64,000 bases of DNA. Source: Halobellus captivus (GTDB lineage: Archaea > Halobacteriota > Halobacteria > Halobacteriales > Haloferacaceae). Below the pieces are notes generated by a model. The model was not told the DNA's origin. It was given only the letters and a program-made list of their open reading frames with translations, and did no database searches. The position numbers were made by a program, and so were the translations under genes. Position 1 is the first letter of the stretch, and every line of letters begins with the position of its first letter. The stretch covers positions 303,742 through 367,741 of the forward strand of contig NZ_VJXQ01000003.1 in assembly GCF_007655485.1 (NCBI RefSeq). Direction: 5' to 3'. This document shows positions 31,240-37,049 of this stretch, in pieces.

Positions 31240-32787
31240 ATGAGTGGCCCTCAACGTCTCTCGACCGGAATCGCTGGTCTCGACGAAGTTCTCGGCGGTG
31301 GGTTCCCCCGAGAGCGAGCGTATATGGTCACCGGCGGTGCCGGAACGGGTAAGACGATCCTCGGCCTCCACTTCCTGACCGCGGGGGTCGACGCGGACGA
31401 GAACGCGCTGTTCGTGGCCTTCGAGGAGGATCCGGAGGACCTCTCTGCGGACGCCAGACAACTCGGCTTCGACACGGGAGAGATCGAGTTCTTGGATCTC
31501 TCACCCGACGCCGAGGAGTTCGTTATCGACGACCGATACGACGTGTTCGAACCGGACGTCGTGGAGGGGTCCGGGATCGCCGATCGGATCGTCGAAGCGG
31601 TCGAGCGGACCGATCCCGACCGGGTGTTTATCGACCCGTTGACGTACCTTCAGTACCTCGCGCCCAACGAGTACCAGTACCGCCAGGAGGTCGCCGGTCT
31701 CGTGCAGTATCTGACGGATCAGGACGCGACCGTCCTGTTCAGTTCACAGGCGGCGATCGAGGGCGAGCGTCGAACGCTCGAATACCTGTGTGACGGAAGC
31801 CTCACGGTCGCCCAGGCGGAGAACGGGCGAACGATCGAAGTGACGAAGCTCCGTGGGTCGGGCTTCCTTTCGGGCGCGCACACACTGGAAATTTCGGGGG
31901 ACGGAATCGACGTGTTCACGAGATTGGTCCCGGACGCACACGACCGAACACACTCGACGACGACGCTCTCCACCGGCGTCGAGGAACTCGATGAACTGCT
32001 TCACGGCGGGATCGAATCTTCGACCGTGACGGTGATCAGCGGTCCGAGCGGCGTCGGGAAGACCACGACGGCGTCGCAGCTCGCGGTCGCCTCGGCAAAG
32101 GCGAGCGCGCGGGCGGTGACCTATCTGTTCGAGGAGACGCGCGACACGTTCGTCCACCGCTCAGAGAGCGTCGGACTTCCGATCGAGCAACTCGAAGCCG
32201 ACGGGACGCTTTCAGTCGAGGAAGTCGAACCGCTGCGCGTCTCTCCGGATCAGTTCGCCCACAGCGTGAGACGGGAAGTCGAGGAGCGCGACACCCAATT
32301 CGTTGTCATCGACGGGATCTCCGGCTACCGGCTGTCGATCCGCGGTGAGGGAGACGAGCTGATCCGCGAGCTCCACGCGCTCGGCCGGTACCTCAAGCGA
32401 ATGGGGGTTACGGCGGTCTTTATCGACGATATGAAGAACGTCACCGGCGACTTCGAGCCGACGAGCTCGAACCTCAGTTACCTCGCGGACAACCTCCTGT
32501 TCCTCCGCTATCTCGAAGCCTACGGAGAACTGCGGAAGGCGATCGGGGTGCTGAAAAAGCGGACGGGTGACTTCGAGCGCACGCTCCGAGAGTTCGGGAT
32601 ACGCAGTGACGGCATTCACGTCGGCGAGCCCCTGACGGGCCTCCGCGGCATCCTGACGGGGACGCCGGAGTGGGGTGCCGACCCCGTGTTCGATCCGCGC
32701 GGTTCCGAGGACACCGCGGGGCCGACCGACCATCACCGCAGGATCGAACCGAGTGATCGCTCCGAAAGCGCTGATCCTCCCGAATGA
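31240..32787 (+). CDS. Double-domain KaiC-type (RecA superfamily) ATPase
   Basis: A 515-residue protein with two tandem KaiC-like ATPase domains. Domain 1 has STGIAGLDEVLGGGFP, Walker A GGAGTGKT (32-39), catalytic glutamates in VAFEED and Walker B RVFIDPLT. Domain 2 has STGVEELDELLHGGIE, Walker A GPSGVGKT (268-275), LFEET and Walker B FVVIDGISGY. Both nucleotide sites look intact. KaiC-type ATPases form hexamers and have been proposed as signal hubs in archaea. The stop codon overlaps the ATG of the LOV histidine kinase gene, so the two proteins are co-translated and probably act in one pathway. Confidence 0.9.
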   Translation: MSGPQRLSTGIAGLDEVLGGGFPRERAYMVTGGAGTGKTILGLHFLTAGVDADENALFVAFEEDPEDLSADARQLGFDTGEIEFLDLSPDAEEFVIDDRYDVFEPDVVEGSGIADRIVEAVERTDPDRVFIDPLTYLQYLAPNEYQYRQEVAGLVQYLTDQDATVLFSSQAAIEGERRTLEYLCDGSLTVAQAENGRTIEVTKLRGSGFLSGAHTLEISGDGIDVFTRLVPDAHDRTHSTTTLSTGVEELDELLHGGIESSTVTVISGPSGVGKTTTASQLAVASAKASARAVTYLFEETRDTFVHRSESVGLPIEQLEADGTLSVEEVEPLRVSPDQFAHSVRREVEERDTQFVVIDGISGYRLSIRGEGDELIRELHALGRYLKRMGVTAVFIDDMKNVTGDFEPTSSNLSYLADNLLFLRYLEAYGELRKAIGVLKKRTGDFERTLREFGIRSDGIHVGEPLTGLRGILTGTPEWGADPVFDPRGSEDTAGPTDHHRRIEPSDRSESADPPE

Positions 32788-34634
32788 CGAGTGAGCAGTC
32801 ACCGGCGCCCGGAACGAGCGTCCTCGTTCTCGTCTCGAACCCGGGGAACCGACGGGTCCTCGTCGACTGGGTCCGGAGCACCGAGGGATACGAGTTCGCC
32901 GATCCGACTGCCGACGGCACCGCCTCTGACGGATCGCTTCCCGAGTTCGACGTCTGTCTCGCGGACCGAAGCGAACTCCGGAAGTTCGCCGACGAAATCC
33001 GTGAAACCCGATCCCGTCCGCATACCTTTCTTCCGTGTCTCCTGATCGACGAACGAGGGGCGGATTTCGAGTCGGTCAGTCCATCGATTCGCGGACTCGT
33101 CGACGACGTGATGACCGCGCCGATCGATCCGGCACACCTCCGGTTTCGGGTCGACACGCTCGCGCGTCGTCGACGGATCTCACTGGAGCTCTGGGAGACT
33201 GAAGAGCGATATCGACGGCTGTTCGAGTTGGCTCCGAACGCGAAGTTCCTGCTCGACGACACGGAGATCCGCGCGACTAACCGGGCCGCAGAGCGGTTTC
33301 TGGGGCGGGATTCCGACTCGCTGGAGGGGACAGAGCTGGAAACGTTCGTCGTGGACAGGGATCGCTCGACGCTCGCGGAACTGCTCGCGGCGGCACCGTC
33401 GGAGGTCGACCCCGCGGGGCCGACGTTCCAAACACTGACGTTCGAGTTCGACGACCGCACGGCCATCTGCGAGGTGGCAACGGTCAGAACCGGCGAGGGG
33501 AGCGAACTGCTCGTCCTCGTTCAGGACATCACCGAGCGAATCGAGCGCGAGCACCAACTCGAACTGTACCGGCGCGCGATGGACGAAGCCACCATCGGAA
33601 TCACGATCACCGATCCGACGCTACCGGACAATCCGATGATCTACGTCAACGACCAGTTCGTCGAGACCACCGGCTACAACCGCGAGGAAGCGCTCGGACG
33701 GAACTGTCGCTTCCTGCAGGGCGACGGGACCGACCGGCAGGCGGCCGCACGAGTTCGGCGAGCGATCGAGAGGCAGCAACCCGTGAGCGAAATTCTCGTG
33801 AACTACAGGAAGAACGGCGAGCCGTTCTACAACGCCCTGGACGTGATGCCGGTCCGCGACGAATCGGGAACGGTCACGAACTTCCTCGGCTTTCAGCGGG
33901 ACGTCACGGAGTGGGTGCGAAACAGACGGCGGCTCTCGGTGCTCGATCGGGTGCTGCGTCACAACGTCCGCAATCGGATGAACGTCGTCACCGGGTACGC
34001 CGAACAGTTGCTCGATCACGACGACCCCGACGTTCGGGCGGCCGCAGAGCGGATAGAGGCGGCGGGCGACGACCTCCTCAGACAGAGTGAAACCGCCCGC
34101 CACTTCCGGGACGTCGTCAACAACGAGTCGACGGCGGTCGGCACTCGCGATCTGGTCGCCGACGTCACTGCCGCGATAGAGGAGATCAGCGCGGGCTATC
34201 CGGACGCCGAAATCGCCACGTCCCTCCCGCCGGAGGCGTGTATCCGAGGCGACGACGGCGTCTCGCTCGCGGTGGTCGAACTGATCGAAAACGCCGCAGA
34301 GCACGGGGCGCCGCCGATCATCGTATCCGTCGAATCCGACCCCGACGAGACCGTCCTCTCGGTATCGGACGGGGGCGAGGGCATCCCCCGAGTCGAGCGG
34401 GCGGTCTTCGACGACCTCGACGAACGCCCGACGCGGCACGCCGGGGGCGTGGGTCTCTGGCTCGTTCGCTGGACGGTCGAGCGGATCGGCGGCCGCATCG
34501 AATACCCCGATCCCGACAGTTCGACCGTGGAGTTGTACTTCGCGACGGCGGACGGCGACCGCGACCGCACCGATGGCCCCGATGGTTACATCGGCCGCGG
34601 CCGCGGATTAGACCGCAGTGGGTTCGGTATCTAG
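32784..34634 (+). CDS. LOV-domain sensor histidine kinase with receiver-like and PAS domains
   Basis: A 616-residue soluble kinase. Domains: receiver-like (10-125; Asp61 could be the phospho-site, but the usual Lys is Ala in TAPID), PAS (140-250), LOV (260-375), HisKA-like helix with His393 in LRHNVRNRMNVV, and an ATPase domain with VELIENAAEH (N box), SDGGEGIP (G1) and GGVGLWLV (G2). The LOV motif GRNCRFLQ carries the flavin-adduct Cys308, and the other flavin contacts Arg309, Gln312, Asn340, Asn350 and Gln370 are all there. Blue light should drive a Cys-FMN adduct. No membrane segment. Coupled to the KaiC gene by ATGA. Confidence 0.9.
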   Translation: MTSEQSPAPGTSVLVLVSNPGNRRVLVDWVRSTEGYEFADPTADGTASDGSLPEFDVCLADRSELRKFADEIRETRSRPHTFLPCLLIDERGADFESVSPSIRGLVDDVMTAPIDPAHLRFRVDTLARRRRISLELWETEERYRRLFELAPNAKFLLDDTEIRATNRAAERFLGRDSDSLEGTELETFVVDRDRSTLAELLAAAPSEVDPAGPTFQTLTFEFDDRTAICEVATVRTGEGSELLVLVQDITERIEREHQLELYRRAMDEATIGITITDPTLPDNPMIYVNDQFVETTGYNREEALGRNCRFLQGDGTDRQAAARVRRAIERQQPVSEILVNYRKNGEPFYNALDVMPVRDESGTVTNFLGFQRDVTEWVRNRRRLSVLDRVLRHNVRNRMNVVTGYAEQLLDHDDPDVRAAAERIEAAGDDLLRQSETARHFRDVVNNESTAVGTRDLVADVTAAIEEISAGYPDAEIATSLPPEACIRGDDGVSLAVVELIENAAEHGAPPIIVSVESDPDETVLSVSDGGEGIPRVERAVFDDLDERPTRHAGGVGLWLVRWTVERIGGRIEYPDPDSSTVELYFATADGDRDRTDGPDGYIGRGRGLDRSGFGI

Positions 34635-35942: not shown

Positions 35943-37049
35943 CTACTGCTCGACGACGGCGAGGCCGCTCGTCGTCGTGTCGCGAAACGACTCCGACCAG
36001 TCGATCTCCAAGCGCTCGAAGCCGTCGCCGCCGTCGGTGGTCCGAAACAGGCCGCGATCCGTGAACGCGAACAGTTCGCCGTCGGCGACGCCCGCGGCGA
36101 GCGTCGGTCGGAGCACCCCCTCTCCGGTCGGTACGCCCGCGTCGTCGATCCGCTCCCACTCGGCTTCGGTGGCCGCGGGTTCGGTTTCGCGTTGCGTGGA
36201 TGCGTCGCCGACGGCGTCGAGGTCGCCGTCGACTCGACGGTACAGATACGACGCCGCGGAACCGGTGCTGTGCGCCCGGCGCGCGCCCGCCGCGGCCGAA
36301 AGGAGAACGCGTCTCGGATCGCCGGGATCGATCGCGACGCTCCAGCAGTAGCGGTGCTTCAACCCCTCCTGCGGGAACGACCACGACTCGCCGCCGTCGC
36401 GGCTCTCGGCATACCCGTCGCCCGCGGCCGCTCGGACGACCTCCGACGCGTCGGGGTGAATCGCCATCGAGTGCGTGTCTCGCCGGGTCGACGGCGCGCG
36501 CTCCTCCCACGTCTCCCCGCCGTCGCGGCTCTGAATCAGCGCGCCAGCCTCGACGGCGACGTAGAGATGGGCCGGATCGGCGGGATCGACCTCGATCCAG
36601 CGGACGTGATGGGTGTGTGGCCGCGGCGGGAACGCCCACGTCGACGCCGACGGGAGGTCCGCGAGGCCGGGGAGCTCGCTCCACGTATCGCCGCCGTCTG
36701 TCGATCGGTAGACGGCGCTCGGCTCGCTCCCGGCGTAGACGACGTCGGGATCGTGCGGCGAGACGGTCACGCTCGTTACCGACGTCGCGAGCGCGGGCTC
36801 GCCGACGCGTTTCCACGTTCGTCCGCCGTCGACCGAGCGGTGCAGTCCGGCGTCGAAGGTACCGCAGAAGACCCGTTCGGGGGCATCGATCGCGGCGTCC
36901 AGACACTCGATGTCGTCGCGCTCGAAGGTGTACTCGGCGTCCGGTCCGGTAGCTGTGTCGTCGCTCGCCCGATCGCCGGTATCGCGGACGTCAGCGACGC
37001 CGCGGACGACGAGGACGCCCGCGCTGGAGGCCGCATAGCAGGTGACCAT
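35943..37049 (-). CDS. BNR/Asp-box beta-propeller protein
   Basis: A 368-residue protein built from BNR (Asp-box) repeats: SVDGGRTWKRVG, STDGGDTWSELPG, SRDGGETWEERA, SRDGGESWSFP and TTDGGDGFERL. It has no signal peptide or membrane helix, so it appears cytoplasmic. Catalytic residues of sialidases are not recognisable. Haloarchaea have several such soluble propellers, of unknown role. The ATG at 37049 begins MVTCYAASSAGVLVV. Confidence 0.85.
   Translation of the reverse strand: MVTCYAASSAGVLVVRGVADVRDTGDRASDDTATGPDAEYTFERDDIECLDAAIDAPERVFCGTFDAGLHRSVDGGRTWKRVGEPALATSVTSVTVSPHDPDVVYAGSEPSAVYRSTDGGDTWSELPGLADLPSASTWAFPPRPHTHHVRWIEVDPADPAHLYVAVEAGALIQSRDGGETWEERAPSTRRDTHSMAIHPDASEVVRAAAGDGYAESRDGGESWSFPQEGLKHRYCWSVAIDPGDPRRVLLSAAAGARRAHSTGSAASYLYRRVDGDLDAVGDASTQRETEPAATEAEWERIDDAGVPTGEGVLRPTLAAGVADGELFAFTDRGLFRTTDGGDGFERLEIDWSESFRDTTTSGLAVVEQ

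Follow-up and report, generated by a model that had tools for sequence, protein, structure and literature searches.

What connects a KaiC-family ATPase with the apparent light-sensing histidine kinase whose gene overlaps its own? The question is raised by a locus of a haloarchaeon of the genus Halobellus, within a 64-kb stretch of DNA that was analysed as a whole and is called the window below. The first-pass annotation of this DNA, made from its letters alone, had treated the pair as a functional unit in which a LOV kinase acts on KaiC as a light-gated switch. We compared the locus with related haloarchaeal genomes, asking which part of the kinase is shared by the partners of KaiC. Its features are as follows.

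31240..32787, + strand: KaiC-family ATPase, 515 aa, two RecA-type domains (PF06745 twice, 1e-71; match to solved KaiC)
31261..31920, + strand: KaiC CI domain (Walker A 31333-31356; catalytic EE 31423-31428)
31966..32670, + strand: KaiC CII domain (Walker A 32041-32064; EE 32131-32136; Ser-Tyr 32476-32481)
32784..32787, + strand: ATGA, overlap of KaiC stop and kinase start
32784..34634, + strand: pREC-PAS-LOV-histidine kinase, 616 aa
32817..33197, + strand: pREC, N-terminal pseudo-receiver (profile E 1.4e-36; PDB receivers, best PleD 1.7e-14)
33204..33539 (span approximate), + strand: first PAS domain (PAS_8, residues 141-187)
33552..33917, + strand: LOV domain (residues about 257-378; photoactive Cys codon 33705-33707)
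33918..34559, + strand: kinase core (H-box RHNVRN, His393 33960-33962; HATPase_c 34257-34538)

Both ATPase sites ascribed earlier to the KaiC protein are present, as seen from its two Walker A motifs, two EE pairs and repeated PF06745 match, and solved KaiC structures match it over the whole length (1.7e-59). The four-base overlap of the two reading frames is likewise as described, and suggests that KaiC and the kinase are co-translated. The pair is flanked by a gcvT-like gene and a gene of the geranylgeranyl reductase family, and among the ORFs of the 64-kb window none adjacent to the pair encodes a response regulator; a scan for bacterial promoters gave no match, as expected for an archaeon. 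At the position of the cyanobacterial S431-T432 pair, 99 of 102 sampled KaiC rows carry Ser-Tyr and the rest Ser-His or Ser-Asn, so that autophosphorylation, if any, would differ from that of cyanobacterial KaiC. A KaiABC clock was considered and rejected, since KaiB was absent from all 30 relative genomes searched (the Synechococcus control was positive).

The LOV-type PAS domain of the kinase has YF1/YtvA as its best PDB match (1.4e-37), is matched by the NCBIfam YtvA and LOV-kinase models with scores below their cut-offs, and has no second strong LOV match beside it in this genome. Its adduct-cysteine motif reads NCRFLQ. Five of the flavin-binding residues listed in the first-pass annotation (C308, R309, Q312, N340, N350) are where they were placed, whereas the glutamine is residue 371, position 370 being Phe. 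The ATP-binding domain is also complete (HATPase_c at residues 492-585, 1.2e-11), and His393 lies in an H-box that was read by eye and is conserved; Pfam HisKA gave no match in the window kinase. From what is known of the family, the LOV domain would bind FMN and form an adduct at Cys308 under blue light, with a change in the kinase.

The possibility that the pair occurs only here can be dismissed, since the pair and its synteny are fully preserved in five further Halobellus species (gcvT, KaiC, LOV kinase, reductase, the gene at 35943, uvrA), where KaiC is 72-78% and the kinase 60-73% identical. A search for the gene pair across haloarchaea found it conserved in two arrangements, codirectional and divergent, so that the pairing survives rearrangement, and this supports the earlier idea of a functional LOV-kinase/KaiC unit. 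Across 60 related genomes with 37 KaiC genes, 109 LOV-like domains were counted, and 19 of them have KaiC no more than 3.5 kb away, where random placement would give about 0.3. In a larger collection of 102 haloarchaeal KaiC genes, consisting of fetched loci plus the window and picked by similarity to the window KaiC, a LOV-type kinase adjoins 51, a proportion that is no census, the 60-genome set being the less biased sample. The photoactive cysteine is intact in 39 of these neighbours (16 codirectional, 23 divergent) and absent from 12, while a further 19 KaiC genes adjoin another kinase and 32 have no kinase detectable by BLAST.

The trees of the two proteins reflect the same two arrangements. 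The KaiC tree gathers the divergent pairs into a single group (24 rows, LOV in 23), and the codirectional LOV pairs fall mainly in a second one (25 rows, LOV in 22); fitting the labels takes 20 changes, versus 59 when they are shuffled. The kinase tree unites the Halobellus kinases with partners in which the photoactive cysteine is replaced by proline (18 rows, support 98), these Cys-to-Pro rows being one branch within that group (11 rows, 95), and sets apart 20 of the 23 divergent partners (98); support is SH-aLRT throughout, from quick trees. The codirectional and divergent groups of the two trees largely match.

One Halobellus genome departs from this order. In this sixth genome (G006; locus L077, G006:C22, 6583-9900) KaiC alone is absent from its place between gcvT and the LOV kinase, the kinase retaining its cysteine and the rest of the synteny being intact; the genome has a KaiC elsewhere (C20:70143), with no pREC neighbour, which is possibly a partner in trans.

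That the link from LOV to KaiC is what sets the pair apart, as first proposed, is not supported, because half of the sampled KaiC partners lack LOV, 12 LOV-type partners lack the photoactive cysteine, and nearly all partners, LOV or not, carry one and the same N-terminal pseudo-receiver. The N-termini of the KaiC-adjacent kinases are alike with or without LOV, and follow the pattern N-R-x-L-L-x-x-W-L ... F-D-x-C-x-V-D ... F-L-P-x-L-L ... V-D-D-V-x-x-x-P ... R-x-x-x-L-L-x-x-R-x-x-S. When copies of this domain, pREC, were counted at E 1e-6 or better in the 60 genomes, 38 of the 44 had a KaiC gene no more than 3 kb away (for 35, no more than 600 bp), where 0.13 would be expected, and six stood apart from KaiC; conversely, a pREC gene adjoins 35 of the 37 KaiC genes. 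Thirty genomes hold both genes, one KaiC only, two pREC only and 28 neither (Fisher 6e-14, indicative only, as species are not independent). In the larger collection pREC is next door in 97 of 102 KaiC loci, a count that includes three small REC-only neighbours with a Lys-Pro motif that are nearer to ordinary receivers (L135, L136, L142). Adjacent pREC is still found in 28 of the 32 loci without a BLAST-found kinase, loci that contributed no rows to training, and a profile built from eight LOV-kinase rows alone recovers 104 of the 105 ORFs.

What follows pREC is evidently exchangeable. Besides LOV and PAS kinases, we found pREC fused to HisKA kinases (L145, L146, L148, L153), to GAF-BAT-HTH_10 modules of the bacterio-opsin-activator type (L129, L138, L170) and to PAS alone (L082, with L078 and L079 similar), so the part behind it may be a LOV-kinase, a PAS-kinase, a Bat-type regulator or PAS only. 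The LOV version itself varies: the Cys-to-Pro clade comprises 11 KaiC-linked rows (L080, L081, L083-L087, L089, L090, L112, L169), 10 of which are unchanged at the five further flavin positions examined (R, Q, N, N, Q), the remaining one having an Asn-to-Ser change. The cysteine is retained in the window kinase and its orthologues from Halobellus, in each of the 23 divergent partners, and in 37 of 40 LOV domains unlinked to KaiC, the three with Pro having also lost N350; the excess of cysteine loss among KaiC-linked LOV domains is marginal (p 0.049), its cases being non-independent and mostly of one clade.

The N-terminal domain is a receiver by descent, to judge from its profile. An alignment of 27 pREC rows matches receiver domains of the PDB, best the second receiver of PleD (1.7e-14), itself a pseudo-receiver (PMC12632262), and keeps the receiver aspartate and the proline that follows the lost lysine. 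No Pfam family recognises the pREC row of the window, and each Pfam family matches at most three of the 27 rows, weakly and scattered. AlphaFold pLDDT, from a three-sequence input, was 37.5 for pREC alone and 38.8 for the whole kinase. The absence of the usual lysine, noticed previously, is real (A112 precedes P113), and the acidic pair is lost as well, being replaced by S18/N19, with D61 kept; by the definition of PMC12632262 this sequence makes pREC a pseudo-receiver. Because the Mg-binding acidic pair and the lysine are missing, phosphotransfer to pREC within the kinase is unlikely. The domain's oddity had been placed in just such a transfer; its distribution points to coupling with KaiC instead.

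Beyond the haloarchaea, one further family of the same phylum has four loci where pREC directly follows KaiC (L208, L210, L211, L212); a protein beside a KaiC-like gene at L214 was left out of these pairs as an ordinary REC-MetOD1 protein. Plasmids provide further cases. The plasmid pMB01 of the cyanobacterium Acaryochloris (L233) carries a KaiC resembling those of haloarchaea (40.6% identity) and, in divergent orientation to it, a pREC kinase (E about 1e-29); the pair, which lies beside an IS630 transposase, was probably acquired by gene transfer. On plasmids of Haloferax larsenii and Halorubrum ezzemoulense (L227, L228) two pREC proteins stand in tandem behind KaiC, and their annotation says no more than PAS or HAMP kinase. 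KaiC genes of proteobacterial plasmids (L229, L230, L231, L234) overlap hybrid or PAS kinases whose N-terminal ~130 residues have no Pfam match and are weakly receiver-like; we did not accept these as pREC (hhalign probability 8.9%, E 0.0037).

Taken together, we think it on balance probable that a KaiC signalling module widespread among haloarchaea, with pREC docked on KaiC, is present here in its light-input version. The distribution of the domain suggests that pREC would sit on the KaiC ring and, through this contact, link the conformation of sensor and kinase to the state of KaiC, be it that of bound ATP or of phosphorylation. In the window, blue light would form the FMN-Cys308 adduct in LOV, the kinase would be switched, and the change would pass via pREC to KaiC, with overlapping translation probably keeping the two proteins in balance. 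Co-evolution fits pREC as the KaiC-facing part, since in a mirror-tree comparison over 68 loci pREC tracks KaiC better (r 0.73) than the kinase core does (0.57), with partial values of 0.60 vs 0.24, although such values can also reflect differing rates and alignment quality. Against this reading we count the clean loss of KaiC from the syntenic site of G006, where the kinase is retained, the 12 LOV-type partners without a photoactive cysteine, and the six of 44 pREC copies away from KaiC.

The same contact could be read in the opposite direction, with KaiC upstream: the kinase would sense the nucleotide or phosphorylation state of KaiC via pREC, as an output of the SasA or CikA kind, and light would modulate a kinase whose target is an unlinked response regulator. 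Cyanobacterial SasA and CikA, which read KaiC/KaiB, offer a precedent, and the Bat-type transcription regulators among the partners have an output architecture, but no response regulator gene lies beside the pair and the sensor-only pREC-PAS partners fit an input better. It is because some partners are sensor-only that we prefer the direction from light to KaiC; a KaiC that sets kinase output is the less likely direction, though quite possible, and this reading as a whole appears somewhat unlikely. Light may also be secondary, the flavin domain acting mainly as a redox or dark flavin sensor. Flavin redox sensing is known from NifL-like proteins, and the supported clade of 11 Cys-to-Pro rows (95), in which 10 keep R, Q, N, N and Q, would suit such a role, the three Cys-to-Pro cases among the 40 unlinked LOV domains having, by contrast, lost N350 too; since the window protein, its orthologues and every divergent partner keep the cysteine, we regard this as unlikely here.

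Two further explanations were weighed. In the model of the first-pass annotation the LOV kinase phosphorylates KaiC directly, with His393 docked on the ATPase, as a dedicated light-gated ATPase. Gene overlap and the completeness of the LOV and kinase domains agree with it, but a domain search found no receiver domain in the window KaiC, and half of the partners have no LOV and some no kinase domain at all, while nearly all have pREC; we therefore give this model little credence. Alternatively, KaiC and the kinase may be neighbours that are merely co-regulated, with no physical coupling, as the KaiC-less syntenic site of G006 would allow. This seems very unlikely given that the pairing is retained in both gene orders, is nearly exclusive to one domain family, and is matched more closely by the pREC tree than by the kinase core.

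A domain almost exclusive to the KaiC neighbourhood and fused to exchangeable sensors is a direct candidate for the part that couples them to KaiC. Its LOV version would offer a blue-light on/off input for switching the state of KaiC in vitro, and the natural Cys-to-Pro series could separate light from flavin redox. More broadly, and only tentatively, pREC may be a dedicated KaiC-docking domain of archaea and some cyanobacterial plasmids, a functional counterpart of the KaiA/CikA pseudo-receivers, by which light, redox or other sensors would set the state of KaiC without KaiA or KaiB, the LOV version then feeding blue light into a KaiC timer or switch of archaea.

Several known systems bear comparison with this module. 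Makarova et al. (mBio, 2017) reportedly described KaiC-like ATPases as signal hubs with neighbouring sensors and kinases. PMC5847659 cites the general proposal that KaiC proteins are signalling hubs. In Haloferax volcanii, where the expression of four cir genes is light/dark-dependent, the double-domain KaiC gene cirC was reported next to fixL (PMC3941300), an arrangement like that of the window in placing such a gene beside a sensor kinase gene, yet different in that fixL was described as an oxygen sensor and a shared domain went unmentioned; in Haloferax larsenii, a relative, the KaiC partners are pREC kinases without the LOV motif. Galperin et al. (2018) noted a divergent, unrecognised N-terminal receiver in haloarchaeal Bat proteins and called its role obscure (PMC5847659). 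Some KaiC-adjacent pREC proteins are of this Bat type, whereas the window protein has a kinase, the BAT and HTH_10 domains being absent. The window LOV has the same LOV residues as LOV kinases, YtvA and the archaeal ALovD-1, with which the first haloarchaeal LOV photochemistry was reported in 2025, in a paper that does not mention KaiC (PMC12202551). The authors of a review from the same year were aware of no published work on what any archaeal pseudo-receiver does (PMC12632262), and we provisionally regard the pREC finding as new. The pseudo-receiver of CikA binds KaiB (PMC12632262). While the haloarchaeal module differs from the cyanobacterial clock in its N-terminal pREC and in having no KaiB in 30 relatives, it resembles CikA, KaiA and SasA in that kinase and pseudo-receiver elements would act on a KaiC system.
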